From Actinomycetes bacterium (GTDB lineage Bacteria > Actinomycetota > Acidimicrobiia > Acidimicrobiales > RAAP-2), in assembly GCA_021791845.1 (NCBI GenBank), contig JAJYVT010000001.1:62001-126000 (forward strand): a stretch of 64,000 bases of DNA. Reading direction: 5' to 3'. Numbering within the stretch: the first letter of the stretch is position 1; every line of letters begins with the position of its first letter. The notes under the pieces were generated by a model, which had not been told where the DNA came from, made no database searches, and worked only from the letters and a program-made list of their open reading frames with translations. A program made the position numbers and the translations under genes. Of the stretch, positions 44,116 to 63,400 are shown piece after piece.

Positions 44116-44181
44116 GGTCCCGTGCGCGTCCCGCCACGGTGCGGGACGCGCCGCGGATGGCCCGGTGGCATTGATGGAGGC

Positions 44182-46066: not shown

Positions 46067-46156
46067 GGCGCCGACGGTCCGGGGCCCGGGCGCGCCGCCG
46101 GGCCCGGGCGCGCCGACGGGTCCCGCCGCGCCGACGGGGGGCGACGGGGAGGCGGC

Positions 46157-47185: not shown

Positions 47186-48682
47186 TCAGCGCCCCGGCGC
47201 GCTGCCGCGGAGCAGCCTTCCGGGCGTGCGCGCCAGGATCCGCAGGTCGCTGCGGACGCTCCAGCTCGTGGCGTACTGCACGTCGAGGCGGACCAGCTCC
47301 TCGAACGTCAGCTCGTGCTGGCCGCACACCTGCCACATGCCGGTCATGCCCGGCCGGACGTCGAAGCGGCGGGCCACCGGACCGCTCAGCGCCTCGCACT
47401 CCTCGGGGATGAACGGCCGGGGGCCGACGAGCGACATCTCGCCCCGGAGCACGTTGATCAGCTGGGGGAGCTCGTCGATCCCGGTGCGACGGAGGACGGA
47501 CCCGAGGCGGGTGATCCGTGCGGGGTCCGGAATGGTGTCGAAGGGCGTCCAGGCCCGGTCACCGCGCGTACCGGGACCGGCGTAGGCACCCGGCGGCACG
47601 GGCACGGCGTGCCCCCGGGGGTGCGGGTTGGGCGCCGGGCGCATGGTGCGGAACTTGAGGATCCGGAACCGGCGCTGGCCCCGGCCCACCCGCACCTGGC
47701 GGAAGAGGACGGGAGCGCCCGACTCGACCCGCACCGCCAGCGCCACCACCAGGAGGAGCGGGCTCAGGAGGGCGAGGCTGGCAGCGGACACCGCCACGTC
47801 CATCGCCCGCTTGGCTGCCCGTTGCGCCCACCCCGGAGGGGTGCCGAGGCTGAGCAGGGGGAGGCCTGTGACGTCGGTCAGCTGGCTGTCCCACCCGGTG
47901 ACCTCGAAGAAGCGGACGACCACGTCCACCTCGGCCACGGAGCGCACCGCGTGGACGACCTCGGCCGTGCGGGCCGGGTGGCGCTCGGAGAAGGCGATGA
48001 CGACGCGGTCGACCCCCAGCGTCTCGCACAGCCGGGGGAGCTCGTCGAAGCGCCCCAGCACCCGCTCGCCGCCACCCGGGCGGTCGTCCACGATGCCGAG
48101 CACGTCCACGAGGGGCGAGCGGGCCAGGCGGGCGGTGAGGTAGCCGGCGATGAAGCCCGAGCCCACCACGACCACTCTCGAGACGTTGGCCCGGTTGCGG
48201 GCGGCCAGCACGACCGCCAGCTCGCGCGCCAGCGGCACGGTGAGCGCCGCCACGCCCAGGGCCACGCCGACCGGCAGCGGTCGGACCGCGGCGTCGAGCG
48301 CCGGCACAGACCGCAGGGCGAACAGGAGGAGGCCGGCGACGCACAGCGAGGAGACGATGAAGCCCAGGTCGTCGGCGACCCGGGGGGCGATCCGGCTCCG
48401 GCGCGCCCCGCGGGCTGCCAGCACGGCGACGAGGGAGGCGACGACGGCCCCCAGCAGCACCAGGCGGTCGCCCACGCCGGCGGACGCCTGCGTCCACGAG
48501 AGGAAGCTCATGCCCGCCGCAGCCGCGACGGCACCGCCCACGCCGTCGGCGACCAGCATGAGGCGTCGCACGTGGTTGCGGCGGGGCGCGATCCTGCGGA
48601 TGGGCGGCGCCTCGGCCAGCCCCGCCGGCGCCGTTCCCGACTGGACCACGGACGCCGCCTGGGGCGAGGAGACGGCCGTCAT
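47186..48682 (-). CDS. Polyprenyl-phosphate sugar-1-phosphate transferase (WbaP/WcaJ type)
   Basis: 498 residues. Four transmembrane segments (about 45-155), a CoA-binding-like Rossmann region (SRVVVVGSGFIAGYLTARL, LGIVDDRPGGGERVLG), then the bacterial sugar transferase domain: KRAMDVAVSAASLALLSPLL, LFRQVRVGRGQRRFRILKFR, RRTGIDELPQLINVL, GEMSLVGPRPFIPEE and DVRPGMTGMWQV. These carry the catalytic DE dyad and basic residues of monotopic phosphoglycosyl transferases. It attaches the first sugar-1-phosphate to undecaprenyl phosphate. ATGA overlap with the upstream small gene. Confidence 0.93.
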   Translation of the reverse strand: MTAVSSPQAASVVQSGTAPAGLAEAPPIRRIAPRRNHVRRLMLVADGVGGAVAAAAGMSFLSWTQASAGVGDRLVLLGAVVASLVAVLAARGARRSRIAPRVADDLGFIVSSLCVAGLLLFALRSVPALDAAVRPLPVGVALGVAALTVPLARELAVVLAARNRANVSRVVVVGSGFIAGYLTARLARSPLVDVLGIVDDRPGGGERVLGRFDELPRLCETLGVDRVVIAFSERHPARTAEVVHAVRSVAEVDVVVRFFEVTGWDSQLTDVTGLPLLSLGTPPGWAQRAAKRAMDVAVSAASLALLSPLLLVVALAVRVESGAPVLFRQVRVGRGQRRFRILKFRTMRPAPNPHPRGHAVPVPPGAYAGPGTRGDRAWTPFDTIPDPARITRLGSVLRRTGIDELPQLINVLRGEMSLVGPRPFIPEECEALSGPVARRFDVRPGMTGMWQVCGQHELTFEELVRLDVQYATSWSVRSDLRILARTPGRLLRGSAPGR

Positions 48683-48984: not shown

Positions 48985-49098
48985 CGGCTGCCCCGTCCAT
49001 CCGGTGTCCTGCGGCCCCGTTGGACGCGCGTGAGACGCGGGCGGGAACCGGCACCCTGGACGGTCGCCGGGTGGGACGCCCGTGGGACCGGCCGCTCG

Positions 49099-49104
49099 TA
49101 CCGT
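49099..49104 (+). promoter_or_regulatory. -10 element (CGTACCGTG motif), leaderless
   Basis: TACCGT in CGTACCGTG, 7 nt before the GTG at 49112, with no ribosome site. Upstream, GGGACGCCC-GTGGGAC resembles the region before the promoter at 55593. Confidence 0.5.
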
Positions 49105-49111
49105 GGCGCCC

Positions 49112-50866
49112 GTGCAAACGGACCCTTTCATGGACGAGACGCTGCGCCTGGCCCGCGACCTGTGCCTGGGCGTCGGCGCCTTCGTCGTGACCGCGGCAGG
49201 GGACGTCTTCTCCAGCACGTCGGACGTGATGCAGCCCGAGGACGCCGATCGACGCATCGCCGACCTGGCCCGGGCATGCCTCACGCACCCGTCGGCCGGG
49301 GGACGCGAGCTCTTCTGGAGCGCCGAGGCGACCGACGAGGGGAGCGACGTCCACGCCGAGTGGTCCCTGGCGTGCGTCGTTTCCCCGATGTGGTGGGGCG
49401 ACACCTGGCTCGGGCTCCTCGGCGTCGTGGACGTGTGGCTGCCCGAGCTCGACGCGGAGCAGCGTTTCGGGCTGCAGGCCCTGGCAGAGGGGCTGGCGCG
49501 CCGCCTCCAGTCGCCTCCCGCCCAGGCTGCGGCCACCGGGGCGCCGGCACCGGTCTCGGGGGCGCCCGCGGGCGGTGGCGGGCCGAGCGACCCCTTCCTG
49601 GGCGAGGTGCTGGACAACCTGCCCGACGGGCTGATCGTGACCCGCGCCGACGGCACGATGGTGCTCGTCAACCAGACCTTCGCCGCGATGACCGGCCTGG
49701 CCATGGACGAGGTCCTGGGTGAGGACGTCCTGGGCGTGCTGCGGGGGAGCGGCGCGGCGGGGACCGGGGGCGCACCGGGCGCCGATCTCACAACCGAGCT
49801 CGCCGCGCTCCTCGGCTCGCCCGAGCCCGGCCGGAGCACCGTGCTCGCGTCCGTGGGCGGCGAGCCCCGTTCGCTGGTGGCCAGCGGGCGTCGCCTCCAG
49901 AGCCGGTTCGCCGGCGACTGCTTCATCACGCTGCTCCGCCCGCCGTCTGCCGGCGAGCCGGGCGCGGCGCAGTCCTCGCTCCCCTCGTCGGGGATCCAGG
50001 CCCTGCTGGACCACGTCGAGGACGGGATCGTGTGCTGCGACGCGGCCGGGGTCGTGGTGCTCGCCAACCGGGCCGCTCGCCGGCTCCAGGGCCTCGACGA
50101 TTCCGAGCTGCAGCCCGGGCAGCCGTTCCCGTCGGCCACGAAGCTCCAGACGCTCGAGGGGCACCCGCTCAGCGTGGACGCCCATCCCCTGATCCGGTCG
50201 ATGCTCGACGACGTCCCGGTGACCACAGATCTCCTGCTGCCCCGGGAGGACGCGGTCGTCTACGTGTCGGTGTCCTCCCACCCGCTGCGGGTGGACGGAG
50301 GCGACGGGGCCATCGCCGTGCTCCGCGACGTGACGGCGGAGCGGGAGCGCCAGGCCCATCTCGCCCACTACGCCCTGCACGACCCCCTCACGGGCGTGGC
50401 GAACCGGTACCTGCTGAACGACGCCCTCCAGCGCATGCTCGACGGCCTCTCGCGTCGCGGCGGCGTCGTCTCGCTGATCTACCTCGATCTCGACCGCTTC
50501 AAGGAGATCAACGACGTGCACGGGCACGAGATGGGCGACGAGGTCCTCCGGGCGGTGTCGCAGCGGCTCCAGCGCGCCGTGCGCGGCGAGGACGTCGTCG
50601 GACGCCTCGGCGGCGACGAGTTCGCCGTGGCCCACATCACCGCCGACCGGCTCTCCGACGGGGACGCCGTGACGGCACGGCTGCGGAAGGTGCTCACCAC
50701 GCCCTACCGGTTCGGCGACGTGGTGCTCGACGTGGGCGCGTCCATCGGCTGGGTGAGCACGTCGTCGGGCGGGGACACCCCCGAGAACCTGATCGCCAAG
50801 GCCGACCGGGCGATGTACGAGCACAAGAACCAACGCCGCAGCGAGCGGCCGGAGTCGGCGGCATGA
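49112..50866 (+). CDS. PAS-PAS-GGDEF diguanylate cyclase of the polysaccharide locus
   Basis: 584 residues from GTG 49112, chosen because of the -10 element 7 nt upstream; an upstream GTG at 49082 and an ATG at 49130 are alternatives. An N-terminal GAF-like domain (about 5-135) has WWGDTWLGLLGVVDVW. The first PAS is at about 155-270 (VLDNLPDGLIVTRADG), the second at about 285-415 (LLDHVEDGIVCCDAAG). The GGDEF domain starts HDPLTGVANRYLL with an intact active site (GGDEF 500-504) and an intact I-site RGED (491-494). Soluble; it should make c-di-GMP in response to an unknown signal, with feedback. ATGA overlap with the Wzz-like gene ties it to polysaccharide export. Confidence 0.9.
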   Translation: MQTDPFMDETLRLARDLCLGVGAFVVTAAGDVFSSTSDVMQPEDADRRIADLARACLTHPSAGGRELFWSAEATDEGSDVHAEWSLACVVSPMWWGDTWLGLLGVVDVWLPELDAEQRFGLQALAEGLARRLQSPPAQAAATGAPAPVSGAPAGGGGPSDPFLGEVLDNLPDGLIVTRADGTMVLVNQTFAAMTGLAMDEVLGEDVLGVLRGSGAAGTGGAPGADLTTELAALLGSPEPGRSTVLASVGGEPRSLVASGRRLQSRFAGDCFITLLRPPSAGEPGAAQSSLPSSGIQALLDHVEDGIVCCDAAGVVVLANRAARRLQGLDDSELQPGQPFPSATKLQTLEGHPLSVDAHPLIRSMLDDVPVTTDLLLPREDAVVYVSVSSHPLRVDGGDGAIAVLRDVTAERERQAHLAHYALHDPLTGVANRYLLNDALQRMLDGLSRRGGVVSLIYLDLDRFKEINDVHGHEMGDEVLRAVSQRLQRAVRGEDVVGRLGGDEFAVAHITADRLSDGDAVTARLRKVLTTPYRFGDVVLDVGASIGWVSTSSGGDTPENLIAKADRAMYEHKNQRRSERPESAA

Positions 50867-52689
50867 CGGTCCCGCCCCCCGTTCGCAGCGACGGGCGCCC
50901 CCTGTCGGCGGAGCGCCTCGAGGCCGCAGCCGAGGAGGGGCGGCGCCTGGCGGCCCGCGGCCTGGCCACGGCCGGTGCGCCGCTGCCCGCCGGCAACCCG
51001 GTCGAGGTGCTGGCCCGCTCGAGCATCCCCCGCCTGCGCGAGCTGGGGGTCGTCACCGAGGTCGTACGCGCCCGCCGGGGATGCCTCGTGGTCCGCACCA
51101 TGCCGCGCGTCGAGGGCTACGCCGCCGAGGCCTGCGCCCTCGTGCAGGCATGGCTGGGCGCCTTGCCCGCCGCGCTGTACGGGGCGGCCGGCACCGTTGC
51201 CGAGTCCAGCTGCGGCGCCCGGGGCGGCAGGGCCTGTATGCACACCCTGATGTGGCAGGAGCCGGCGGGGATCCGCCGCCTGCCGCTCGACCCCCCGTCG
51301 CCTGCCGCGAGCGAGGCGCCTGGCGCCCACCGCCCGGCACAGTCTGGAGGTGCCGCCCCGGCACCGTCACCGGGGGCCGCGAACCCCACTCCCATCCCCA
51401 TCCCCGCGGCCCACGAGACGTTGCCGGTGGCACCTCCACCTCCTGCGCCCCCGGCCCCCACGGGCACGGGCGCCTTCCTGGCCCCGCTGAACGGCCATGG
51501 CGGCCAGGCGGCCCCACCCCCGCTGGTGGTGGCACCGCTGCCGGCCCCGTGGCCCACGAGGGGGTTCCGGGACCCATCGTCGCCGGGCGACGGACAGCCG
51601 GCGGACCCGTCGGCCGCGGCCCGACGGCAGGTGCCCGAGCCCGACCGCGACCTCGATGTCGGCTCCTCGGGCTCCGGCCATCGTCGCCGCTGGGCGTGGC
51701 TCCGCCGTCGGGCGTGGCTGCTCGCCGTCGGCCTGGTCGCCGGGTGCCTCGGCGGCTTCGTCGCCGGCCACCGGGCCGGCACGTCCTACACGGCCACCGG
51801 GGTGCTGGTCGTGCAGGCGCGTGGGTCGACAGCGGCCACCTCGAGCGCCAACGGGGCCCAGGCCCTGGCGACCACCTACGCCGCCCTCATCCCCGACGAC
51901 CAGGCCATGCTCCACCGCGTGGCCGCCGAGCTCGGGCTCTCCACAGCCGCGGTCGCCCACAGCCTCGCCGTGCAGGCGGAGTCGGGAACGGCGCTCGTGG
52001 AGATCCGGTTCTCCGCCGGCGACGCCACGACGGCCGTGCGCGGCGCCAACGACGTGGTGCGCCTGCTCAGCTCGGCCAATCCCCCGGGGCGGGCGATCGC
52101 TCCCGGGTCGGTGGCCGTCGTCTCGGCGCCGACCGCGGCCGCCCTCTCCGGCACCCTGCACAAGTACGGGCTGCCGCTCGGGGTGGTGGGTGGCCTCATG
52201 GTGGGCCTCGTCGCCGCCCTGGTCGCCGAGCGAACCGACCGGCGGGTCGACGACCTGGACGCCCTCGGGAGCGCGGCGGACTGCTCCGCCACCATGCGCC
52301 CCGACGGCCTCACCGCGGCCGAGCTGGCCCGGTCGCTGCAGCGAAGCGGAGGAGACCAGGTCACCGTGGTCCCGATGCGGGCCGAGCAGCACGAGGCGGC
52401 CAACGAGCTCGCATGGGCCGTGCGCGAGACATGGCCCGGGGCCCAGTTCCCGGGCGGAGCCGTGGCAGCCGGCGGTGGGCGTCCCGACGTCCTCGTCAGC
52501 CCGCCGTTCGCCAACGAGCCGCAGTCGATGAGCGCCGGGTCGGGCCAGACGGTGCTGGTGGTGGGATCGGGCGACCGGGCGGTCGCGGTGCGGGAGGCGG
52601 CCGAGCGGCTCCGTCTCCTCGGACGCGGGCCGACGTGGGCGGTCCTGGTGTCCCCCAACCGGGACCGGCCGGACGAGCGTGCGCGCTGA
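50863..52689 (+). CDS. Wzz-like polysaccharide co-polymerase with an N-terminal V4R-like domain
   Basis: 608 residues. An N-terminal cytoplasmic domain (about 15-135), VEVLARSSIPRLRELGVVTE to SSCGARGGRACMHTLMW, resembles 4-vinyl-reductase/V4R-type ligand domains with a paired-Cys ending (Cys117, Cys125). A Pro/Ala linker of about 130 residues follows. A Wzz-type module has transmembrane helices at about 284-303 and 434-456 flanking an extracytoplasmic helical region (GTSYTATGVLVVQARGSTAA, then SLAVQAESGTALVEIRFSAG). The C-terminal cytoplasmic region (about 460-608) lacks the Walker motifs of BY-kinases. It should set chain length of the polymer. Overlaps its neighbours on both sides. Confidence 0.75.
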   Translation: MTVPPPVRSDGRPLSAERLEAAAEEGRRLAARGLATAGAPLPAGNPVEVLARSSIPRLRELGVVTEVVRARRGCLVVRTMPRVEGYAAEACALVQAWLGALPAALYGAAGTVAESSCGARGGRACMHTLMWQEPAGIRRLPLDPPSPAASEAPGAHRPAQSGGAAPAPSPGAANPTPIPIPAAHETLPVAPPPPAPPAPTGTGAFLAPLNGHGGQAAPPPLVVAPLPAPWPTRGFRDPSSPGDGQPADPSAAARRQVPEPDRDLDVGSSGSGHRRRWAWLRRRAWLLAVGLVAGCLGGFVAGHRAGTSYTATGVLVVQARGSTAATSSANGAQALATTYAALIPDDQAMLHRVAAELGLSTAAVAHSLAVQAESGTALVEIRFSAGDATTAVRGANDVVRLLSSANPPGRAIAPGSVAVVSAPTAAALSGTLHKYGLPLGVVGGLMVGLVAALVAERTDRRVDDLDALGSAADCSATMRPDGLTAAELARSLQRSGGDQVTVVPMRAEQHEAANELAWAVRETWPGAQFPGGAVAAGGGRPDVLVSPPFANEPQSMSAGSGQTVLVVGSGDRAVAVREAAERLRLLGRGPTWAVLVSPNRDRPDERAR

Positions 52690-54394
52690 CCGGGCGCTCG
52701 TCGTCCGGCGACGCACCCCGGCCCCGGGCTCCGGCACGGCCGGCTCGCCCGGCTCGCCCGGCTCGGCCGGCTCGGCCGGCGCGGCCGGCTCGCCCGGCGC
52801 GGCCGGCGCCGTAGCGTCGGCGCCCCGAAGGCGCCGCTCCGGGAGCCCGCACAGGCCGGGCAGGCCGGACGGGCCGGGCAGGCCGGACGTGGACGCCCGG
52901 GGGACCGGCGAGCTCGGCGTCGGGTGGCTGGCCAGGCGGACCCGTCCGCTGGTCCTGGCGGCGGCGTGCACGTTCGTCGCCCTCGGCGTGGGCTACCTCC
53001 TCCCCACGAAGCCCAAGGACGCCGTGGCGCTGCTCGGCGGGGCGGTCGTCGTCGCCGCCGTGCTGTTGCGACCGGTGATCGGCGCCGTCCTCCTGGTGGC
53101 CCTCGTCCCGGCCACCTCGGGGTTCGCCCCGGGGTTCCCGGTGTCGCACGTCCGGCTCTCGGAGGCGATCATCGGCCTGGTCGGCGTGACGCTGATCGCC
53201 TCCGTCCGGCGGACCGAGGCCGTCCCGTGGGACACCCTCGACTGGGCGCTCCTCGGCTACGGCCTCACCTGGGCCGCCTTCGCCGTGCTGGACCAGCACC
53301 AGCTGCACGAGCACCTCACACTCGGCGCGTGGGGATCGGCGCTGGGCCAGCTGCAGTTCTTCCTCATCTACCGCGGCGTGCGGGTGGCGGTGCGCTCGGA
53401 GCGGGAGCGGCGGCTGTCGCTGACGGCGCTCATGGTCGCCAGCCTCCCCGTCGCCGCGCTCGCCGTGCTCCAGGAGATGCGGGTCCATGCGGTCCAGTCC
53501 TTCATCAACACGCTGACGGGGGGCCTCACAGGTGGCTCCGCTCCCACAGCCGCCGGGTCGGTGCGGGTCACCGGCCCCTTCGTCAACTGGGCGGCACTGG
53601 CCGGTTACCTGCTGCCGATCCTGCTCGTCGTGGTGGCGCTCGCCCTGTCGAACTCCGAGCTGCGACGGGCGCGCTGGTTCGCCGCCGTCGGTGTGGCCGG
53701 TGGGCTGGCCATGGTGCTCACCCTCGAGCAGTCGGCGATCATCTGCGGGCTGTTCGGCGTGTTCGTCCTGCTCCGGAGGTACGACCGCAACGGGCGCATG
53801 ACCCGCATCTTCCTGGCCGCGCTGGCGGTCCTCCTGGTGGCGGCCAGCCCCGTGCTTATCGGGCGCTTCGCCCACGAGCTGGCGGGGACGCCGGGCAGCG
53901 GCCGGATCCCCTGGGTCCCCCAGACGCTCAGCTTCCGCTGGGGCGTCTGGACGAGGCAGTACTTCCCGGCCATCGGCGCGCGTCCGTTGCGCGGGTACGG
54001 GATGGTCTACCCCACCTCGATCAGCTGGCCCTTCCCGGAGTCCCAGTACATCTCCTTCCTGATGGAGGGCGGGGTGCTGATGGTGGCGGCCTTCGCCGTC
54101 CTGACGTGGGCGATGCTGCGCCGGACCTGGGCTGCCGCCCACGCCGCCGACCCGCTCGACCGGGCGCTCGGCTTCGCCCTCACGATCGGCGTGGTCTCCC
54201 TGGTCGTCATGGCCTTCACGTGGCCGTTCCTGAGCAACGGCGGCATGCCGCAGGTGCTCTGGGCGCTCATGGGCCTGCTCCTGCCCGTGCACCGCCCGGC
54301 GGGAACGGATGCCGGCGCCCTGTGGCGCGCCTCCCCGGCGGCGGTCCCCGACCGCGTGGAGCCGCCGACGCTGGCGATTCGGAGCGCGCCGTGA
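52679..54394 (+). CDS. O-antigen polymerase/ligase-like membrane protein (Wzy/WaaL type)
   Basis: 571 residues from a GTG 11 nt inside the previous gene. A disordered N-terminus (1-80) holds Gly-Ser/Ala-Pro repeats encoded by a 9-bp tandem repeat. Eleven or so transmembrane helices follow, with a large extracytoplasmic loop (about 395-450) containing GSGRIPWVPQTLSFRWGVW and GYGMVYPTSISWPF, placed as in Wzy/WaaL proteins. TGPFVNWAALAGYLLP precedes the loop. It likely polymerises lipid-linked repeat units outside the membrane. GTGA overlap with the glycosidase-like gene. Confidence 0.82.
   Translation: MRADRALVVRRRTPAPGSGTAGSPGSPGSAGSAGAAGSPGAAGAVASAPRRRRSGSPHRPGRPDGPGRPDVDARGTGELGVGWLARRTRPLVLAAACTFVALGVGYLLPTKPKDAVALLGGAVVVAAVLLRPVIGAVLLVALVPATSGFAPGFPVSHVRLSEAIIGLVGVTLIASVRRTEAVPWDTLDWALLGYGLTWAAFAVLDQHQLHEHLTLGAWGSALGQLQFFLIYRGVRVAVRSERERRLSLTALMVASLPVAALAVLQEMRVHAVQSFINTLTGGLTGGSAPTAAGSVRVTGPFVNWAALAGYLLPILLVVVALALSNSELRRARWFAAVGVAGGLAMVLTLEQSAIICGLFGVFVLLRRYDRNGRMTRIFLAALAVLLVAASPVLIGRFAHELAGTPGSGRIPWVPQTLSFRWGVWTRQYFPAIGARPLRGYGMVYPTSISWPFPESQYISFLMEGGVLMVAAFAVLTWAMLRRTWAAAHAADPLDRALGFALTIGVVSLVVMAFTWPFLSNGGMPQVLWALMGLLLPVHRPAGTDAGALWRASPAAVPDRVEPPTLAIRSAP
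52742..52804 (+). repeat. Seven tandem 9-bp units in the polymerase gene
   Basis: Units GGCTCGCCC, GGCTCGGCC and GGCGCGGCC encode Gly-(Ser/Ala)-(Pro/Ala) triplets in the cytoplasmic N-terminus of the Wzy-like protein. Confidence 0.85.
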
Positions 54395-55494
54395 GCGGCG
54401 ACCGGCTGCCGCGGCTCCGCCCGCGCACGCGGCGACGTCTCACCGCCGGGATCCTGGCGGCCGTGGCCGTCGTGGGGCTCGCCGTCGCGCTGATCGGGTC
54501 GTCGTCCTCGCCGACGGTGGCGGGCAACGACGGCAGCGGCCACCCGGCCGCCACGACGAGGGGCGGCCCGACAAAGGCGCACGACCCGGGGCCGCCCGCG
54601 TCGACATCGAAGCGCACCGCGGCCACCGACGCGCAGGCGCCGCCGCTCGGCGTCTACACCGGCCCGGGGAACTCGGCGGCGGCGGAGGCGGTCGCCGCCC
54701 AGCTCGGCAACCGGGTCCCCTATGCGCTGGACTACCTCCCTCGGACCACGTGGACAGCGCTCACCGACCCGAGCTGGCTGGCCCAGCGGTGGCAGGGCTC
54801 GCCCTTCCACCTGGTCATCGGCGTGCCGATGCTGCCCAGCTCGGGCGCGACGCTCGCCCAGGGGGCGACGGGGGCGTTCGACGCCCAGTTCCAGACCCTG
54901 GCCGAGCGGCTCGTCCAAGACGGTCTCGGTGGCGCGATCCTCATGCTCGGCTACCAACCCGACGACGAGGACACCCCGTGGTACGTGGGGTCGCGGGCCG
55001 CGGCGCTCGACTACGTCCGCTACTGGCGCGCCATCCGGGCGACGATGCTCGCCGTGCCGGGCGCGGCCTTCCTCTTCGAGTGGGACGCCGGGGACGCGGG
55101 CACGTCGCCCGAGAGCCCCGCCGCCATGTACCCGGGGAGCGCCTTCGTCGACATCGTCGCCACCGACGCCTTCGACTTCGTGGGGGCCGACCCCGCCACA
55201 CACGGCCACTGGGCCACCGTGCTCGACCAGCGGTACGGCCCGGCATGGATGTCGGCGTTCGCCGCGTCCCACCACAAGCCCATGGCCATCGCCATCTGGG
55301 GCGAGGTCCCGGCGTCCACAGGCGGCGCCGGCGACCAGCCGGCGTACGTCACCCAGCTCCTGCGGTGGGCGGCCGCCAAGCGGGTGGTCATGTGCGTGCT
55401 CTGGGACTACCAGAACATGACGCTGACCGGCGGCGCGTTCCCGGCGGCTTCGGCCGCGCTCAGCCGTGCCGTCGCCGGTGCGGCGGGCGCGTAG
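54391..55494 (+). CDS. Secreted TIM-barrel glycosidase-like protein (GH26-like, atypical active site)
   Basis: 367 residues. An N-terminal signal anchor (about 16-36), a Thr/Pro/Lys linker, and a barrel domain from about 85: LGVYTGPGNSAAAEAVAAQL, FHLVIGVPMLPSSGATLAQG, ILMLGYQPDDEDTPWY, AFLFEWDAGDAGTSPES, FVDIVATDAFDFVGAD, PMAIAIWGEVPAST and CVLWDYQNM. The layout matches beta-mannanase-like GH26 proteins found in exopolysaccharide loci. The acid/base glutamate expected at the end of strand 4 (as in xGxExN) reads GYQPDDED, and the nucleophile position reads IWGEV. It may trim or bind the polymer outside the cell. Last gene of the first forward operon. Confidence 0.7.
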   Translation: MSGDRLPRLRPRTRRRLTAGILAAVAVVGLAVALIGSSSSPTVAGNDGSGHPAATTRGGPTKAHDPGPPASTSKRTAATDAQAPPLGVYTGPGNSAAAEAVAAQLGNRVPYALDYLPRTTWTALTDPSWLAQRWQGSPFHLVIGVPMLPSSGATLAQGATGAFDAQFQTLAERLVQDGLGGAILMLGYQPDDEDTPWYVGSRAAALDYVRYWRAIRATMLAVPGAAFLFEWDAGDAGTSPESPAAMYPGSAFVDIVATDAFDFVGADPATHGHWATVLDQRYGPAWMSAFAASHHKPMAIAIWGEVPASTGGAGDQPAYVTQLLRWAAAKRVVMCVLWDYQNMTLTGGAFPAASAALSRAVAGAAGA

Positions 55495-55672: not shown

Positions 55673-57001
55673 ATGGAACAAGCACTGAGCGGGGGGACGA
55701 CGAATCTCCTCCGGATGGCCCGGAGCGGGTGCCAGAGCGCCTCGTCGTTCGTCGCCCTCGCGCTCACCGACGACTCGTTCGCCACTGCGGTCTACCCGGC
55801 CACGCCCGAGCTTGGATCCCTGGACATCGCCACCGTGGACCACCTGATGCGCCAGCTCTGGCACGACCCGGGGCTCGGTCGGGGCAAGGCGCTGGTCCGG
55901 ACGATCCCCGTCGGGAACGACCGCATCGCGGTCGCTGCCGTCCCGCTGGCCGTCAACGAGCAGGGACAGCCGTCGGGTCTGCTCGGCGTCGCCGACCCGA
56001 GCGGCAAGTCCTTCGGCGTGCCCGACCTCGAGCTGCTCTCGCGGATCGCCCAGCGGCTGACATCGTACGTGCAGGCCCGCCGGACCGTCCGGTCCCAGAT
56101 TTCCCCTTCGGCCGCTCCGGGGGACCGGGGCCCTGCAGCTCCCGGCCAGCCCGCCGGCCAGGGGCCCGGCGAGGCGCCCGGCGACGCCTTCGGCCGGCCG
56201 GCGCCCCAACCGGAGGCCGCCCAGGTCGTGGAGGGCCCCCCGACGGTCCCGGGCCCGGTGTGGTGGGGCGAGCACGGCAGCGGGACCCTTCCCCTGCCCC
56301 CGTTCCCACCGCCGGCCGGCACCGCCGGGGTCGGCCGCACGGTCGCCGCGCCCGGAGCCGAGCGCCCGCAGGCGACCGAGCGCCCGCAGGTGACCGAGCG
56401 CCCGCAGGTGACCGAGCGCCCGCAGGCGACCGAGCGCCCGCAGGCGACCGAGCGCCCGCAGGCGACCGAGCGCCCGCAGGCGACCGAGCGCCCGCGCACC
56501 GGTGCCGCGGAGGGTGCCGCTCCGCATGCTGCGGCAACGCCGTCTTCGCGGGACGAGTCCCTCCGGTCCTTCCTCGCCGGTGACGGGGAGATCGACGGGC
56601 TCGTCTCGCTCGGCACGCTCCTGGGCCGCGCCGGCCGGCTGCTCGGCGCCGGGACGGCGGCAAGCGGATCCCTTACGGTGGTCGTGCTCGGCGTGGAGGG
56701 CGTGCCCGAGCCGACGGCCGAGGAGGTGGGACGCGTCGCCCGGTCGATCCGGGCGGAGCTGCGCTTCGACGACCCGCTCGCCCGCATCGGGGAGCTCTCC
56801 TTCGTGGCCGTGGTGCCGTTGGCACCGGGCGCCGCGACCGCCGCCCAAGTCGAAGCCCACCTGTCGGCGCGGGTCCGCAGCGCCGTCATCCAGCATCCCG
56901 GCGCGCGGGTTCACGCCGCACACGTGGTGGCACCGCTCGACGGCAGGCAAGACGCAGACGAGCTGCTCCGCGCTGCGGTGGTGAAGCTCCGTGCGCGCTG
57001 A
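55673..57001 (+). CDS. GAF protein with hexapeptide repeats and a degenerate GGDEF domain
   Basis: 442 residues. An N-terminal GAF-like domain (about 1-140) has GLLGVADPSGKSFGVPDLEL. A Pro-rich linker contains seven ERPQ(A/V)T repeats (about 230-271). The C-terminal domain (about 298-442) is GGDEF-like in its order of elements, with IDGLVSLGTLLGRAGRLLGA and LRFDDPLARIGELSFVAVVP. The active-site motif has become GELSF (373-377), but the RxxD I-site is intact as RFDD (364-367) with the canonical five-residue spacing. It is expected to be catalytically dead and may bind c-di-GMP. ATG start in a weak ribosome context; 17 bp before the flippase gene, whose C-terminus carries a related domain. Confidence 0.82.
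   Translation: MEQALSGGTTNLLRMARSGCQSASSFVALALTDDSFATAVYPATPELGSLDIATVDHLMRQLWHDPGLGRGKALVRTIPVGNDRIAVAAVPLAVNEQGQPSGLLGVADPSGKSFGVPDLELLSRIAQRLTSYVQARRTVRSQISPSAAPGDRGPAAPGQPAGQGPGEAPGDAFGRPAPQPEAAQVVEGPPTVPGPVWWGEHGSGTLPLPPFPPPAGTAGVGRTVAAPGAERPQATERPQVTERPQVTERPQATERPQATERPQATERPQATERPRTGAAEGAAPHAAATPSSRDESLRSFLAGDGEIDGLVSLGTLLGRAGRLLGAGTAASGSLTVVVLGVEGVPEPTAEEVGRVARSIRAELRFDDPLARIGELSFVAVVPLAPGAATAAQVEAHLSARVRSAVIQHPGARVHAAHVVAPLDGRQDADELLRAAVVKLRAR
56360..56485 (+). repeat. Seven tandem 18-bp units encoding ERPQ(A/V)T
   Basis: GAGCGCCCGCAGGCGACC repeated seven times, two units having GTG for GCG, then a partial eighth unit. In frame, so each gain or loss changes the linker by six residues. 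Confidence 0.95.
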
Positions 57002-57018: not shown

Positions 57019-59361
57019 ATGCCGCGCCGGACGACCGTCGCACCGAGCACGGACTCGCCGGACTCGCCGGACTCGCGCGCGACCTCGGACGGAGGGTCGC
57101 TGCGCGAGACGGCGATCCGCAGCGGCGCGTACCTCGTCGGCCGGGAGGCCGTGGGCATCGGCGTCAGGCTCCTGGGCCTGGTGCTCGTCATGCGGCGGAT
57201 CGGTCCGGCCGACTTCGGCATCTACGGGGCGGCCGCGGCCTATGTGATCCTGGCCTCCACGCTGGCGCAGATGGGAGCGGAGGTGTTCCTCATCCGGCAG
57301 CCGGGACCGCTGCCGCGGCGCCGCTACGACGAGGTGTTCACCACGCTGCTGGTCACGTCGGCGGTGGTGGTGGTGGTGGGGCTGGCGCTGTCCTTCGCCG
57401 TCGCGCCCTGGCTGCGCCCGGTGGGCGTCGTGGTCCCGGCGCGGGTCATGGTGCTGAGCGTGCCGCTCAACGTCCTGTGGGCGCCGATGCAGGCGTGCAT
57501 CGAGCGGCAGTTCGCGTACCGGCGGCTCGGCTTTCTGGAGGTCGGCAGCGACGTGGTCCTGTACGGGACGGCGGTGCCGCTGGCGTTCCTCGGAGCGGGG
57601 CCGTGGTCGCTGATCGCCGGCTTCTTCGCCTGGCAAGCGTGGCGGTTGGTCGGCAGCATGGCGCTGTCGGGGCTCTGGCCGCGGCTGGCCTGGTCGTCCG
57701 GGACGGCTCGGGAGCTGATCGCCCATGGGCGGACCTACGCCCTCACGACATGGATCGCCGGCGCCAGGGCGGCGATCCTGACGTTGATCGTCGGGACCTA
57801 TGCCGGGGCGACCGGGGTCGGCCTGGTCAACTTCGCCCAGCGCATGGTCACAACCATGAACTTCACCGACCGGGGCGTGCACCGCATCGGCATGGTCGCG
57901 ATCTCGAAGGCCAGCCGGGAACGGCCCGGGCGGCTGTCGGTGGCCATGGAGGAGGGGACGCTGCTCCTACAGGTGGTGGCGGCGGTTCCGTTCATCGCCT
58001 TCGGGCTGGCCGCTCCGTGGATGGTCCCCGACGTCTTCGGGCGCGACTGGCTGCCGGCGATGCCGGTCTACGTGCTGCTGGCGCTGTGGGCGATGCTGCG
58101 CGTTCCCGTCACCGTCCAGCGGACGCTCCTCTACGCCCACGGACGCAACATCCCGCCGGCGATCACCAGCACGATCGAGCTGGTGCTGGTGAGCACGGTC
58201 GCGCTGGTGGCGGTTCGTCAGCTGGGCATCGTGGGATTCGGGATCGCCAGCGTCGTGGCGGTGAGCTCGAGCGTCTACACCCACCACGCCGCACGCCGGC
58301 TGGTGCAGCTCCGCTACCGGCGCCTGGTGCTGCCGATGGTCGCCCTGGTCCCGCCGGTGTTCGCCGCCGTGGTCCCCGTACCCTGGGCGTTCCTCCTGCT
58401 CCTCGTACCGGTGTCGGTGCTCGCCCTTCCCTCGATGCGGGCCGAGCTGCGCCACCTGATCTCGACGGCCCGAGCCACGGTCGGCCGGCCCCGAGCCGCG
58501 GGTGCCGTGCCATCGACGTCGCAACCGGCGCCGGCCGTGGTCACCGCGCTGCCCGTTCGCACCCCGCCCCGGGTTGCCACCCTGGGCGCGCCTGGCACCG
58601 GGGGTCGTGAGATGGCGATGAACGGCTCCTCTCGAACCACGCCGAACGTGTCGCTCTTCCCACCGTTCCAGGCATGGCGCCTCCAAGCGGGGTCGGTGGT
58701 GGACCCCACCAACCCTCGGATCGCCGATCGGGCGTCGCTCGACGCGCACGGGCTCACCTTCCGCCCGACCCCGCCGGCAGCGGGTGACGAGCGGCGCACC
58801 GCGGGGCACGAGGACGGACCCGGGCGGTCGGACGCGCCCATGCACGTGGACGGGACAGCCTCGGGGCTGGAGCCCCGGGTCCCCGACATGGTCCAGGCGC
58901 TGCTGGCCGAGACCGACCCGGTGACGGGGCTTCCCTCGCCGGTGGTGCTGCTGGCCCGGCTCGGCCGGCTGCTCGGCGCCGTGCGGGAGACCGGGTGGAC
59001 GCTCGCCGTCGTGGCGGTGGAGCTCCGACGGGGCGAGGGCGCCCGGCCGGGTGCGGCCCCCGAGGAGATGCTGGCCGACGTGGCCGAGGGACTCCGGGCC
59101 GTGCTCCGGTTCGACGACCTGGTGGCCCGGGTGGGGGCGGCGACCTTTGTCGCAGCCGTCACCCTGGTGGGACGGGGGCTGGACGGCATCCACGTCGCCG
59201 CCCACGTCGAGGGATCGGTTCGCGCCGCGCTGGCGGCATCGGGCCACGGAGCGCTGTCCGAGCGCTGGACCGTGCGGTCCGCCCACGAGGTGGTGCCGTT
59301 GCCGTGCGACCGCGACGCCGACGAGCTGGTGCGCCGGGTGCTGGAGGCGCTCGATGGCTGA
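57019..59361 (+). CDS. Polysaccharide flippase fused to a degenerate GGDEF domain
   Basis: 780 residues. Residues about 25-475 form a Wzx/MurJ-like multidrug-oligosaccharide-polysaccharide flippase with twelve to fourteen transmembrane helices, starting SGAYLVGREAVGIGVRLLGL, with GPADFGIYGAAAAYVILAST. A cytoplasmic linker follows (about 480-630). The C-terminal domain starts TDPVTGLPSPVVLLARLGRL (from 631), matching the entry of GGDEF domains. The active site GGDEF is replaced by GAATF (706-710), yet RFDD (697-700) keeps the I-site at the right spacing. It should move lipid-linked repeat units outward and may be gated by c-di-GMP; the fusion is the main reason to think so. Overlaps acpS by 8 nt. 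Confidence 0.85.
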   Translation: MPRRTTVAPSTDSPDSPDSRATSDGGSLRETAIRSGAYLVGREAVGIGVRLLGLVLVMRRIGPADFGIYGAAAAYVILASTLAQMGAEVFLIRQPGPLPRRRYDEVFTTLLVTSAVVVVVGLALSFAVAPWLRPVGVVVPARVMVLSVPLNVLWAPMQACIERQFAYRRLGFLEVGSDVVLYGTAVPLAFLGAGPWSLIAGFFAWQAWRLVGSMALSGLWPRLAWSSGTARELIAHGRTYALTTWIAGARAAILTLIVGTYAGATGVGLVNFAQRMVTTMNFTDRGVHRIGMVAISKASRERPGRLSVAMEEGTLLLQVVAAVPFIAFGLAAPWMVPDVFGRDWLPAMPVYVLLALWAMLRVPVTVQRTLLYAHGRNIPPAITSTIELVLVSTVALVAVRQLGIVGFGIASVVAVSSSVYTHHAARRLVQLRYRRLVLPMVALVPPVFAAVVPVPWAFLLLLVPVSVLALPSMRAELRHLISTARATVGRPRAAGAVPSTSQPAPAVVTALPVRTPPRVATLGAPGTGGREMAMNGSSRTTPNVSLFPPFQAWRLQAGSVVDPTNPRIADRASLDAHGLTFRPTPPAAGDERRTAGHEDGPGRSDAPMHVDGTASGLEPRVPDMVQALLAETDPVTGLPSPVVLLARLGRLLGAVRETGWTLAVVAVELRRGEGARPGAAPEEMLADVAEGLRAVLRFDDLVARVGAATFVAAVTLVGRGLDGIHVAAHVEGSVRAALAASGHGALSERWTVRSAHEVVPLPCDRDADELVRRVLEALDG

Positions 59362-59860
59362 TCGTGGTCCGGCACAGGCCGTGGATGCCACCGCCACCGT
59401 GGATGCCATCGCCGCCGTGGGCGCGCCCGTGAGGGTCGGCGTGGACGTCACCGCCGTGGCGGAGGTGGCCGACGCCGTCGCCATCTTCGGCGACCGCTAC
59501 CTGCACCGGCTCTTCACCCCCCACGAGGTCGAGAGCTGTGGGGGAGCGGCCGCCGCCGCCTCCCTGGCCGCGCGCTTTGCCGCCAAGGAGGCCGTCGTCA
59601 AGGTGCTCGAGCCCTCGGGTGCCCGCCCGCCGTGGCGGGACATCGAGGTGGTCCGGCGCCCCGACGGCGCCTGCCGCATCCGGCTGCACCGGACGGCGGC
59701 ATCGCTGGCGGCCGAGCACGGCGTGGGCCCCATCAGCGTGAGCCTCAGCCACGAGGCCGGGCTCGCCGTGGCCGTCGTGGCCGCGGCGTGCGAGGGCCCG
59801 GCCGACGGCCCGCGACAACGTTCAACCGAGCAATCCAACACCGGAGGAGCAGACCGATGA
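59354..59860 (+). CDS. Holo-ACP synthase-type phosphopantetheinyl transferase
   Basis: 168 residues. An Ala/Val-rich N-terminal extension, then VRVGVDVTAVAEVADAVAIF with the Mg-binding Asp, YLHRLFTPHEVESC and SLAARFAAKEAVVKVLEPSG with the catalytic Glu. SVSLSHEAGLAVAVVA ends the domain. It transfers 4'-phosphopantetheine from CoA to the Ser of a carrier protein. The adjacent carrier-protein gene overlaps by 4 nt, so this is probably its dedicated activator rather than the fatty-acid AcpS of the cell. Confidence 0.9.
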   Translation: MADRGPAQAVDATATVDAIAAVGAPVRVGVDVTAVAEVADAVAIFGDRYLHRLFTPHEVESCGGAAAAASLAARFAAKEAVVKVLEPSGARPPWRDIEVVRRPDGACRIRLHRTAASLAAEHGVGPISVSLSHEAGLAVAVVAAACEGPADGPRQRSTEQSNTGGADR

Positions 59861-60126
59861 CGACGACCGACGAGAGCACCCGACGCATTCGCGAGGTGCT
59901 GGCCGACCACGGCCGGCTCCCGGTGGACGTGGGCCAGCTGTCCGACGACGACGACCTGTTCCAGGCGGGAATGACGTCACACGCCAGCGTGAACGTCATG
60001 CTCGCCCTGGAGGACGCCTTCGACGTGGAGTTCCCCGAGGCCATGCTGCGCAAGAGCACCTTCGCCTCGATCGGCGCGCTGCGCCGAGCCCTCGCCGAGC
60101 TCGAGACCATGGAGGTGCCGGCATGA
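59857..60126 (+). CDS. Acyl/aminoacyl carrier protein
   Basis: 89 residues, ATG with GGAGGAG upstream. Four-helix carrier fold: STRRIREVLADHGRLPVDVG, DDDLFQAGMTSHASVNVMLA and LEDAFDVEFPEAMLRKSTFA. The phosphopantetheine Ser is residue 41, in GMTSHASV instead of the usual GxDSL. Carrier proteins with this context are the partners of amino acid:carrier-protein ligases such as the one encoded at 61328. Overlaps both neighbours by 4 nt. Confidence 0.92.
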   Translation: MTTTDESTRRIREVLADHGRLPVDVGQLSDDDDLFQAGMTSHASVNVMLALEDAFDVEFPEAMLRKSTFASIGALRRALAELETMEVPA

Positions 60127-61331
60127 CCGTGTCCTTGACCCAGCCCACCACCGGCCCGGTGCCGTCGGGGCTGCTGCGCTCGGTGGAGCGGCTCGGCCGC
60201 GACGTCGCCGCCGCCCATGCCGACGACGTCGACCGCTCGGCGCGGTTCCCCGCCGAGACCTTCGACGCGCTGAAGGAGGCAGGGGTGCTCGGCGCCCTCG
60301 TGCCGCGAGCGCTCGGAGGCGCGGGGCTGACCCTCGCCGAGGCGTGCGCCGGCGTGCGCGCCCTGGGACGCCACTGCGCCTCGAGCGCCATGGTGCTCGC
60401 CATGCACCATCTCCAGGTGGCATGCCTGGTCCGCCACGGCCGGTCCGAGGCCCTCCGCCAGCTCCTGGCCGACGTGGCCGACCGCCAGCTCCTGCTCGCG
60501 TCGGCAACGACCGAGGCGGGCATCGGCGGGCGGCTGCGGGAGAGCAGCTGCGCCGTGCACGCCGACGGAGAGCGCTTCGAGCTGGAGAAGCAGGCCCCGG
60601 TCATCTCCTATGGCGCCCACGCCGACGCGGTGCTGGTCACGGCCCGGCGGACCCCGGACAGCCCGCCCGGCGACCAGGTGCTGGTCGCCTGCGTCAAGCC
60701 CGGGGTCTCGCTGGAGCAGGTGGGCGAGTGGGACACGCTCGGGCTGCGGGGCACCTGCAGCCCCGGCTTCGTCCTGCGGGCTGCCGGCCCGCTGTCGATG
60801 ATCCTCGACGACCCGTTCGCCGACGTCGCGGCCGAGACGATGCTGCCCTACTCCCACATCCTCTGGAGCCACGTCTGGCTCGGCATCGCCGACGCCGCCA
60901 TGTCCAAGGCGGGCGCGCTCGTGCGCAAGAAGGCGCGCCAGGACCCGGGCACGGTGCCGCCGGGCGCCCGCCGCCTGGCCGAGCTCGACGTCGTCTTCCA
61001 CCAGCTCGAGAGCTTGGCGACGGCGACGCTCGCCCGTTACGACGAGGCCGCCGGCGGCCAGCGGGCCGAGAGCGTCGGCGACGCGGTCGCCCTCAATGCC
61101 CTCAAGGTGGGCGCCTCCCGGCTCGTCGTGGAGGTGGTGACCGGGGCGCTCGGGATCTGCGGCATGGACGGCTACCGCGAGGGCACGCCCTTCAGCCTCG
61201 GCCGCCAGCTCCGGGATGCCCACAGCGCCGCGCTCATGGTCAGCAACGACCGCATCCTGGGTGACAACGCCCAGCTCCTGCTGCTGTCGAGGGACCCCGG
61301 CGGCACCGATCGCACGGAAGGGAAGGTGTGA
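60123..61331 (+). CDS. Acyl-CoA dehydrogenase-family flavoenzyme
   Basis: 402 residues. N-terminal helical domain with FPAETFDALKEAGVLGALVP and ALGGAGLTLAEACAGVRALG; the middle beta domain has LLLASATTEAGIGGRLRES. C-terminal helices contain GALGICGMDGYREGTPFSLG, with a Glu where acyl-CoA dehydrogenases have their catalytic base, followed by RQLRDAHSAALMVSNDRIL. In this context the substrate is probably an aminoacyl thioester on the neighbouring carrier protein, as known for prolyl-carrier dehydrogenases, but that is inference. Overlaps on both sides. Confidence 0.87.
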   Translation: MTVSLTQPTTGPVPSGLLRSVERLGRDVAAAHADDVDRSARFPAETFDALKEAGVLGALVPRALGGAGLTLAEACAGVRALGRHCASSAMVLAMHHLQVACLVRHGRSEALRQLLADVADRQLLLASATTEAGIGGRLRESSCAVHADGERFELEKQAPVISYGAHADAVLVTARRTPDSPPGDQVLVACVKPGVSLEQVGEWDTLGLRGTCSPGFVLRAAGPLSMILDDPFADVAAETMLPYSHILWSHVWLGIADAAMSKAGALVRKKARQDPGTVPPGARRLAELDVVFHQLESLATATLARYDEAAGGQRAESVGDAVALNALKVGASRLVVEVVTGALGICGMDGYREGTPFSLGRQLRDAHSAALMVSNDRILGDNAQLLLLSRDPGGTDRTEGKV

Positions 61332-62320
61332 CCACCATGGTCCAGACCCACACACACCGCTCCGGAGGCGCCGCCGACATCAGCGCCGCCGACATCAGCC
61401 CCTCCGACGGGGCATCCTCCCTCGTCCGGCGCATGCTGGATGCGGGGCTGCTCGCCCCGACGGGCGTCCTCGGCCTCTACGGCCGGTCCGGGGCGTACCA
61501 GGACGTCGCCGACGGCATCGGCATGATGGTGCGCCGCTGGGGTGCGTCCCTCGGGGCACGCCGCTTGCACCTGCCGCCGGTCCTGGCGCGGGCGACCTTC
61601 GCCCACACGAACTACCTCGAGTCCTTCCCCGACCTCATGGGGTCGGTGCACGTCTTCACCGGCGGGGACGCCGAGCACAAGCAGCTGCTGCGCCGGGTCG
61701 AGTCCGGCGGGGACTGGCCCGCGCTCCTCGAGCCGGCGGAGGTGGTGCTGGCCTCGGCCGCGTGCCACGGCGTGTACCCGCTGTGCACCGGGACGCTGCC
61801 AGAGGAGGGCCTCACCTTCGACGTGCAGAGCTCCTGCTTCCGGCACGAGCCCAGCGCCCAGGCGGCCCGGATGCAGTCCTTCGTGATGCACGAGATCGTG
61901 CACGTGGGGACGGCGCAGAGCGCCTGGGACCACCGAGAGGAAGGTCTGGCCCGTGGCATCCGGATGCTGGAGGCCCTGGGGCTGTCGATGCAGGCCGTGC
62001 CGGCGTCGGACCCGTTCTTCGGCCGGGTCGGCTCCGTGCTCGCCGCCGGGCAGCTGGAAGAGCAGCTGAAGATCGAGGGGGTCACCCCGATCCCCGGCAC
62101 CGACGGCGTGACGGCGATCATGTCGGCCAACTGCCACCGGGACCACTTCGGCGTGCCGTTCTCCATCCGGACCGCCGGCGGCGACGTGGCGCACAGCGCC
62201 TGCGTGGCCTTCGGCGTCGACCGCATCGTGGTCGCGCTGCTGGCCGTGCACGGCTTCGAGCCGGAGCGCTGGCCGTTCTACGTGCGGGCCCAGCTCGGCC
62301 TGGCCGGGACCGAAGGCTGA
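61328..62320 (+). CDS. Amino acid:[carrier protein] ligase (class II synthetase-like)
   Basis: 330 residues from a GTG overlapping the dehydrogenase. It is a truncated seryl-tRNA-synthetase-like catalytic core without a tRNA-binding arm. Motif 2 is SSCFRHEPSAQAARMQSFVM; motif 3 is ACVAFGVDRIVVALLAVHG. Candidate zinc ligands are Cys in SAACHGVYPLC and SANCHRDHFG plus the Glu of FRHE, as in the Bradyrhizobium enzyme family (Bll0957 type). Those enzymes adenylate glycine or alanine and load it on a phosphopantetheine carrier protein. The carrier, its activator and the DUF1839 protein are all adjacent. Confidence 0.9.
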   Translation: MTTMVQTHTHRSGGAADISAADISPSDGASSLVRRMLDAGLLAPTGVLGLYGRSGAYQDVADGIGMMVRRWGASLGARRLHLPPVLARATFAHTNYLESFPDLMGSVHVFTGGDAEHKQLLRRVESGGDWPALLEPAEVVLASAACHGVYPLCTGTLPEEGLTFDVQSSCFRHEPSAQAARMQSFVMHEIVHVGTAQSAWDHREEGLARGIRMLEALGLSMQAVPASDPFFGRVGSVLAAGQLEEQLKIEGVTPIPGTDGVTAIMSANCHRDHFGVPFSIRTAGGDVAHSACVAFGVDRIVVALLAVHGFEPERWPFYVRAQLGLAGTEG

Positions 62321-62332
62321 CGGGGCCCGCCC

Positions 62333-63400
62333 ATGCGAGCCGACGTCCTGTGCATCGACCCGGCCGGGTACCGGTCCCACCCCCTCCACGGGGGGGACCG
62401 CGTCTGGACCGAGACGAACTGCGCCGCCGACCTGTGGATCGAGACCCTGCACGCCCTCGGCTACGACCCCGTGGCCGGGCTCGGGTTCGCCCTCGCCTCG
62501 GACTTCGACGGCGACCAGTGGCGCATGTTCACCTATCCGGCCGGCACGCTCCGGTCGCTCTACGGTCTCGAGGCCGACGAGCTGAACGTCTGGCGGCCCC
62601 TGCGCGAGCACGTCGTCGAGCAGCTCGCCTTCGGGAACCTGGTCGCCTTCGACGCCGACGCATGGTGGCTCCCGGACACCGCCGGGCTCACCTACCGCAG
62701 CGCGCACCAGAAGACCACCATCCTGGCGGCGCGCATCGACACCGAACGCTGCTGCCTGGGCTACATCCACAACGCCGGTTACTACGAGCTCGGCGGGGAG
62801 GACTTCGAGGCCCTGCTCCCGGCTCGCCCGGCGCCGGACCAGCTGCCGCCCTACACGCTGCAGGTGCGTCTGGCGGGGCGCCGGTCGCCGGGACCGGCCG
62901 ACCGGGAACGGGCGGTCCGGCTGGCCCGCGCCCACCTCGACCGCCGACCGCTCCACAACCCGGTGGCACGGATGGCGGCGCGGGTCCACCACGACCTCGA
63001 GCGCCTCCGGGCCGACGGCCTCGACGCCTTCCATCGCTGGGCGTTCGGGACCCTCCGCCAGTGCGGCGCCAACGCCGAGCTGGCCGCCTCCTTCGCCACG
63101 TGGCTGGAGGCGGCCGGGGTGGCCGGGGCGTCGGACGGCGCGGCCCCGCTGGAGGCGGTGGCGATGGGCATGAAGTCGGCGGAGATGGTCATGGCGCGGG
63201 CGGTCCGCGGACGCGCCGTGGACGTGGACGCCTTGTTCGGGCCGCTGGCGGCCAGCTGGGCGGCCGGGATCGACGGGGTGGCCGGCGCCGTGTCGGCGTC
63301 GTGCGCCGGCTCGCCGGCGACAGCGCCCGGAACCGAGGTCGAGGACGCGCCGGCAGGGGCACGGCCGTGGCGGGCCGAGCCCTCGATGGCGAGCCGGTGA
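62333..63400 (+). CDS. DUF1839 protein, probable aminoacyl transferase of the carrier-protein module
   Basis: 355 residues, cytoplasmic. It starts VLCIDPAGYRSHPLHGGDRV with WTETNCAADLWIETLHALGY, whose Cys may be a nucleophile. FGNLVAFDADAWWLPDTAGL and YRSAHQKTTILAARID carry conserved Asp and His, giving a papain-like Cys-His-Asp arrangement. CLGYIHNAGYYELGGEDFEA follows. DUF1839 genes are usually found beside amino acid:carrier-protein ligases, so a role in moving the aminoacyl group from the carrier to an acceptor is likely, but unproven. It overlaps the GH2 gene by 4 nt. Confidence 0.85.
   Translation: MRADVLCIDPAGYRSHPLHGGDRVWTETNCAADLWIETLHALGYDPVAGLGFALASDFDGDQWRMFTYPAGTLRSLYGLEADELNVWRPLREHVVEQLAFGNLVAFDADAWWLPDTAGLTYRSAHQKTTILAARIDTERCCLGYIHNAGYYELGGEDFEALLPARPAPDQLPPYTLQVRLAGRRSPGPADRERAVRLARAHLDRRPLHNPVARMAARVHHDLERLRADGLDAFHRWAFGTLRQCGANAELAASFATWLEAAGVAGASDGAAPLEAVAMGMKSAEMVMARAVRGRAVDVDALFGPLAASWAAGIDGVAGAVSASCAGSPATAPGTEVEDAPAGARPWRAEPSMASR

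Follow-up and report, generated by a model that had tools for sequence, protein, structure and literature searches.

In the window, the whole 64,000-nucleotide stretch of DNA that was analysed, a Wzx-type polysaccharide flippase carries a catalytically dead GGDEF domain as a C-terminal tail. With a probability of roughly 0.6, this tail is a c-di-GMP receptor that acts through its I-site, within the pathway proposed below. We infer both the binding of c-di-GMP by the tail and the control of export from sequence comparison, which suggests that sugar export itself may be switched by c-di-GMP. The coordinates of the fused gene and of its neighbours are collected in the table.

Table. Features of the flippase gene and of the surrounding polysaccharide cluster (positions are those of the window).
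Feature	Position	Strand	Residues	Basis or remark
Glycosyltransferases	44122-47113	both		polysaccharide cluster
Initiating phosphoglycosyl (sugar) transferase	47186..48610	-		PF02397, E 2.2e-57; 5' limit approximate
PAS-PAS-GGDEF diguanylate cyclase	49082..50866	+		PF00990, E 7.3e-40; intact RGED...GGDEF
Wzz/chain-length-determinant-like protein	50863..52689	+		TIGR01006, E 8.9e-8, below cut-off; conserved order
Multi-pass membrane protein in the Wzy/O-antigen-ligase position	52679..54394	+		inferred from conserved order; no Pfam match
Secreted protein, glycoside-hydrolase-like by inspection only	54388..55494	+		conserved order; no Pfam match; start approximate
GAF + linker + degenerate GGDEF gene	55673..57001	+		directly upstream of flippase; AF2, Foldseek, GAF_2
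Wzx/MOP-type flippase part	57019..58458	+	1-480	PF13440, NCBIfam, hydropathy
Linker, variable, Pro/Ala-rich	58459..58896	+	481-626	
Putative internal translation start	58600..58614	+		GGGGG, 7 nt, ATG at 58612 within TGAGATG (58608-58614)
Degenerate GGDEF domain	58897..59361	+	627-780	AF2, VIA, PF00990
I-site RxxD (RFDD)	59107..59118	+	697-700	R and D invariant in 23/23 degenerate domains
GAATF replacing GG(D/E)EF	59134..59148	+	706-710	
Third I-site residue equivalent, His	59203..59205	+	729	PelD Arg402; presumably PleD Arg390

The open reading frame at 57019-59361 (+) begins with ATG and encodes 780 residues, with a flippase in the N-terminal part and a GGDEF-like domain in the C-terminal part. 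It is present exactly as the earlier note had given it, and Pfam matches were obtained for both parts. PF13440 (Polysacc_synt_3) matches residues 59-349 with an E-value of 1.4e-32, and PF13440 and PF01943 are the only Pfam matches of the flippase. The NCBIfam MOP flippase PRK10459 also matches (E 1e-16, below the equivalog cut-off), as does TuaB, likewise below its cut-off. By this family match and as a multi-helix membrane protein, the flippase is a Wzx / MOP-superfamily polysaccharide flippase. The name "Wzx/MurJ-like" in the earlier note is therefore kept for its Wzx/MOP-like part and dropped for MurJ, since no MVIN/MurJ model occurs among the Pfam matches up to E 10 or among the NCBIfam matches. 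A PelG or pel operon identity was also rejected, as no PelG family is found among the Pfam matches of the flippase up to E 10. Judging from its family and from the phosphoglycosyl transferase, Wzz and glycosyltransferase genes of the operon, the protein would flip lipid-linked repeat units.

The flippase probably has about 12-14 transmembrane helices, by hydropathy and family. Simple hydropathy analysis gave 11 segments in the flippase part of the window protein, plus 2 spurious segments in its GGDEF domain, and 12 and 13 segments in two relatives; a clear positive-inside signal was not found in these three proteins. The family and a basic stretch after the last helix point to a cytoplasmic location of the tail. 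The linker that precedes the tail can scarcely be aligned among orthologues except for an EM(A/S)xNGS motif, and the codon-position pattern is weaker there and normal in the degenerate GGDEF domain. The possibility of a sequencing or assembly artefact was rejected because nine further proteins, encoded in other assemblies, show the same fusion.

The Pfam GGDEF model (PF00990) matches residues 631-718 weakly when the whole protein is searched (E 0.0045), and the isolated tail domain gives an E-value of 6.9e-5, just under the curated cut-off. The DPVTGLPSP stretch begins at residue 633 and is followed by LRFDD, LVARV and GAATF in that order. The motifs DPVTGLPSP, RFDD and GAATF had all been picked out in the earlier note, and the same layout recurs in the nine further fused proteins. 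An active diguanylate cyclase was rejected because the catalytic residues are absent from the tail, which has GAATF instead of GG(D/E)EF.

An AlphaFold2 model of the tail was calculated from an alignment of 23 degenerate domains with no intact GGDEF among them, and had a pLDDT of 93.6 and a pTM of 0.89. The structural matches listed for this model are GGDEF structures, with a Foldseek E-value of 6.5e-8 for 4yme. VIA gave a Z-score of 16.7 against 4yme (2.7 Å over 143 residues) and of about 15 against PleD-c-di-GMP complexes. Furthermore, a profile of the degenerate domains searched against PDB sequences recovered solved GGDEF domains at E-values from 6e-16 (3icl) to 4e-9. The predicted fold of the tail is thus GGDEF, as the earlier note had supposed. 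PelD structures are absent among the PDB matches listed for the tail, which may nevertheless be kin to PelD.

The 23 related degenerate domains were compared with 43 intact GGDEF domains of the loci compared. Only four columns are invariant in the degenerate alignment, namely the G of TGL, one Leu, and R71 and D74 of the RxxD motif, the last two being kept in 23/23 domains at identities down to about 25%. RFDD is conserved in orthologues, as the earlier note had required; beyond these, the R and the D stay fixed while the intervening residues vary freely, to give RERD, RDSD, RDDD or RARD. The third I-site column is always basic, with Arg in 14 and His in 9 of the 23 domains; in the window's clade it is mostly His, which is not the textbook Arg. 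His729 of the window protein occupies the position of a residue that we take to be Arg390 in PleD. Its equivalence to PelD Arg402 draws on our own alignment, the spacing and the published roles of the residues (PMC8461298, PMC7112168). The second G, the D and the E of the GGDEF signature are found in none of the 23 degenerate domains and in all the intact ones. Overall, the catalytic columns (N, the metal-binding D, FK, ND, GH..GD, the second G-D-E of the signature and the terminal D/Y/K) are kept in 0-26% of the 23.

Intact GGDEF domains of the loci compared have RxxD as well (41 of 42); this sample was drawn partly from profile matches and is hence biased. The motif was therefore inherited rather than acquired, its presence in a single protein says little, and its frequency was rejected as a stand-alone statistic. 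The earlier note had taken retention of RxxD together with loss of the active site as the signature of a receptor; the joint pattern is upheld, whereas RxxD by itself does not have that meaning. The argument is made by the loss of the catalytic columns combined with a fixed R and D across diverged, catalytically dead copies, and part of this retention could still be inheritance, RxxD being ancestral in these GGDEF domains.

The same figures bear on the possibility that the tail has given up nucleotide binding and serves in protein-protein docking or dimerisation, its R and D persisting as common GGDEF framework. The prevalence of RxxD in intact domains is consistent with this, as is the retention of the neighbouring framework residues A77, R78 and F84 in about 90% of the degenerate domains; moreover, two adjacent proteins of the operon both carry the domain and could simply pair. 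However, the framework residues tolerate some change and R71 and D74 none, despite the low identity, and the third I-site position stays basic, so that a mere docking role is considered improbable, if well worth keeping in mind. It is far less probable still that the domain is a functionless, decaying leftover of a gene fusion. The lost active site and the variable linker would be expected of such a remnant, but the domain is predicted to fold, its frame is open in 10 proteins, its I-site is invariant and its codon pattern is normal. The predicted fold, the loss of the active site, and the RxxD with a third basic residue suggest that the tail belongs to the class of GGDEF-derived c-di-GMP receptors.

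Fused flippases were found ten times, in nine genomes, and fall into two supported clades of Acidimicrobiaceae-type MAGs from acid-soil and mine actinobacteria. The survey of other actinobacterial flippases that the earlier note had proposed thus yielded nine further proteins with the same tail. When named GTDB genomes were scanned with the flippase profile, 19 loci were recovered, and every one belongs to Acidimicrobiaceae or to other actinobacterial MAGs. Five of the proteins have the LRFDD-type tail (the window's, L039, L040, L041 and L049), and three have a diverged degenerate tail (L047 with RDSD, L048 with RDDD and L050 with RARD). In L044 and L045, a complete GAF-degenerate GGDEF protein continues the chain of the flippase (RERD). 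Other flippases have no tail, including the close relatives L042 and L046; the tail is therefore not needed for flipping. In the flippase tree the two fusion clades stand apart, with support of 98/99 and 98/95, and untailed proteins lie unresolved between them, which means that the tail either arose on two occasions or disappeared several times.

Three further genomes from the genus and family contain orthologous gene pairs, in which a GAF-degenerate GGDEF gene precedes a fused flippase; two such pairs occur in one of these genomes. A family-wide profile search placed the closest degenerate domains chiefly in the window's genus and in a few other members of the family, and its weaker matches, in many genomes, include ordinary GGDEF domains. 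In a phylum sample of 396 genomes the full-length fusion was found in the window's own genome only, a count that is a lower bound because only two candidates per genome were scored.

The linker of the window's clade contains a putative start signal. A TGAGATG heptamer is present in the linker of all five LRFDD-type genes (near 10157 in L039, 4975 in L040, 9929 in L041 and 4877 in L049), with GGGGG, GGGAGG or GAGG located 6-8 nt before the ATG. In the window, the product from this ATG would be a free degenerate GGDEF protein of 249 residues. The T of the heptamer is the wobble base of codons for R, A, P, A and A, and no other of the 803 codon columns has the same T or A at the wobble position in all five genes. 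Multiplied across the five genes, the wobble-T frequencies give 8.5e-7; for independent sites, this corresponds to an expectation of about 0.001 such T columns. The pattern was noticed after the fact. This conservation suggests selection on the nucleotide sequence, most simply for an internal start used besides the fusion. The SD-ATG signal was not found in the linker of the second fusion clade, which seems to be fused only. The probable internal start means that the tail domain may act partly in trans, and it complicates a simple fusion picture of the window's clade.

Two other readings of the heptamer were weighed. A -1 frameshift that ends the flippase at the TGA of TGAGATG, or a stop/start signal of the -1 frame, was considered; in each of the five genes the -1 frame runs through the linker without a stop, but no conserved slippery heptamer was seen in them by inspection. 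Alternatively, in the window's clade the domain may work mainly as the separate 249-residue protein, the fused form being minor or passive. The invariant heptamer with its SD-like, G-rich stretches and its singular wobble T agree with this, as do the following MAxNGS, which resembles a protein N-terminus, and the weaker codon bias of the linker. However, although the linkers differ in length, all five genes can be read from the flippase into the domain without meeting a stop, and the full fusion must therefore be made unless ribosomes shift frame; inspection, as noted, showed no conserved slippery site. Together with the absence of the signal from the linkers of the second clade, this makes a mainly separate domain unlikely, and the fused tail is retained as the form to be explained.

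The gene directly upstream of the flippase encodes a second degenerate GGDEF domain of the same family. The earlier note had remarked neither on this gene nor on the intact cyclase or the start signal in the linker. The two domains are related at an E-value of 3e-14, and the upstream protein has kept LRFDD and has GELSF in place of GGDEF. A weak GAF_2 match was obtained, and the AF2 model consists of two ordered domains separated by a disordered linker of about 150 residues, with GAF and GGDEF matches in Foldseek. The GAF fold starts at model residue 7, with no helical membrane region before it. This protein is a second candidate c-di-GMP receptor. Tandem ATERPQ/VTERPQ repeats were noted in its linker at about 56300-56500 of the window. 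A third copy, of the GAF-degenerate GGDEF type, lies elsewhere in the window's genome, beside another cyclase and without a flippase (G000:C86).

The order phosphoglycosyl transferase, cyclase, Wzz-like protein, membrane protein, secreted protein, GAF-degenerate GGDEF protein and flippase is conserved in many loci, as scored as far as each contig or retrieved stretch reaches. It continues past the flippase with ACPS, in some cases an acyl-CoA dehydrogenase, and an aaRS-like gene. Over the reach of each contig or stretch, the order from the cyclase to the aaRS-like gene is kept in L029/L040, L030/L039, L031/L049, L042, L044 and L046, and that up to the flippase in L032/L041. Most of the ten fused flippases lie in this operon, with an intact PAS-GGDEF cyclase and with the GAF-degenerate GGDEF gene immediately upstream.

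The cyclase in the same operon raises the possibility that the tail does not gate the flippase and instead anchors the cyclase at the export site, feeding the GAF-degenerate GGDEF receptor or limiting the cyclase. There is a parallel in Bacillus subtilis, where the degenerate GGDEF protein YdaK binds the cyclase DgcK directly and in an I-site-dependent manner (PMC7064775). However, the PAS-GGDEF cyclase also lies directly beside the GAF-degenerate GGDEF gene in L033-L037, where there is no flippase, which indicates that cyclase and receptor form a portable module of their own. An anchoring role is for this reason rather doubtful, and a receptor role of the tail is preferred.

Several other features of these loci were recorded. 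The window region 59342-63400, 3' of the flippase, encodes ACPS, an acyl carrier protein, an acyl-CoA dehydrogenase, a class-II aaRS-like protein and a DUF1839 protein. This cassette is kept in most of these EPS loci and might load a carrier protein with an aminoacyl or acyl group. The N-terminal extension of the Wzz-like protein (window 50863-51300) is well over 100 residues long, contains the Cys motif SSCGARGGRACMH and has no Pfam match; by eye, it recalls V4R-type sensor domains. Stop-to-stop frames, by arithmetic only, suggest fusions of a Wzy/ligase-like protein with a flippase in L053 (1111-4194), L055 (5418-9455) and L056 (5577-9452), and of a flippase with a secreted glycoside-hydrolase-like protein in L057 (1761-5978).

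The proposed system resembles several that are known. PelG is a flippase-like exporter. PelD, which binds c-di-GMP through RxxD and R402, is found in a complex with PelG (PMC8461298, PMC7112168). Like PelD, the protein encoded upstream of the flippase combines a GAF with a degenerate GGDEF domain, has RxxD and a third basic residue, and is encoded in the operon; unlike in PelD, four N-terminal transmembrane helices are missing, and the two domains are joined by a long disordered linker. Additionally, the flippase matches Polysacc_synt_3 rather than PelG, the operon is Wzx/Wzy-like rather than pel, and the flippase itself bears a receptor domain as well. YdaK likewise has a degenerate GGDEF domain with a kept I-site, which is needed for its direct contact with DgcK; it controls an EPS operon and works with its cognate cyclase (PMC7064775). 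PssE of Listeria is reported to be a degenerate GGDEF protein with a kept I-site and the receptor of an EPS operon (PMC4125290). Both are separate receptors, unjoined to a flippase. BcsE is another GGDEF-derived I-site receptor for EPS control (PMC8461298); however, it is a soluble accessory protein of cellulose secretion with no transporter fusion. Mycobacterial MurJ/MviN carries a C-terminal intracellular pseudokinase on a linker after TM14 (PMC6180346), but it belongs to another flippase family and is regulated by phosphorylation and FHA proteins, not by a nucleotide messenger. The nearest working precedents are PelD-PelG and DgcK-YdaK, and mycobacterial MurJ is one for a flippase that bears a dead enzyme as its tail. 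In the open-access literature no description of a flippase or Wzx protein joined to a GGDEF or degenerate GGDEF domain was found, in agreement with the statement in the earlier note that no such flippase was known to it, and two reviews of c-di-GMP receptors and EPS control make no mention of Wzx or flippases. As far as we have seen, the receptor class and the transporter class are both known and their joining is undescribed.

In the pathway that we propose, the PAS-GGDEF cyclase of the operon would make c-di-GMP locally. The nucleotide would then bind both the flippase tail and the neighbouring GAF-degenerate GGDEF protein at their I-sites, perhaps in the form of an intercalated dimer that bridges the two. 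Their contact would recruit or reshape the export complex, and lipid-linked repeat units would be flipped only at high c-di-GMP; that c-di-GMP activates rather than inhibits flipping is assumed by analogy. The GAF-degenerate GGDEF protein is put forward as the partner because the two genes are adjacent and because in L044/L045 the two proteins form one chain, which is independent evidence, of the Rosetta-stone kind, for an action of such receptors on the flippase. Several points speak against this pathway, namely the mostly His third I-site residue in the window's clade, the untailed L042 and L046, and the long linker, whose approximately 145 residues make direct allosteric coupling to the transporter uncertain. 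The complete proposal, in which Wzx-type flippases are gated by c-di-GMP held between the tail and its cyclase-fed partner, and in which one clade also frees the tail through an internal start and so tunes the switch, is tentative and somewhat more apt to fail than to hold in full.

c-di-GMP controls EPS at transcription, at polymerisation (PilZ on BcsA/Alg44, PgaCD) and through PelD-type receptors. To our knowledge, how the PelD-type receptors act on the export complex is not understood. If the tail is indeed a receptor, its presence on a Wzx-type flippase, beside a cyclase and a PelD-like partner, would put c-di-GMP control at the flipping of lipid-linked repeats, and the flippase and its neighbour would offer a two-protein system in which the action of an I-site receptor on a flippase could be tested directly.
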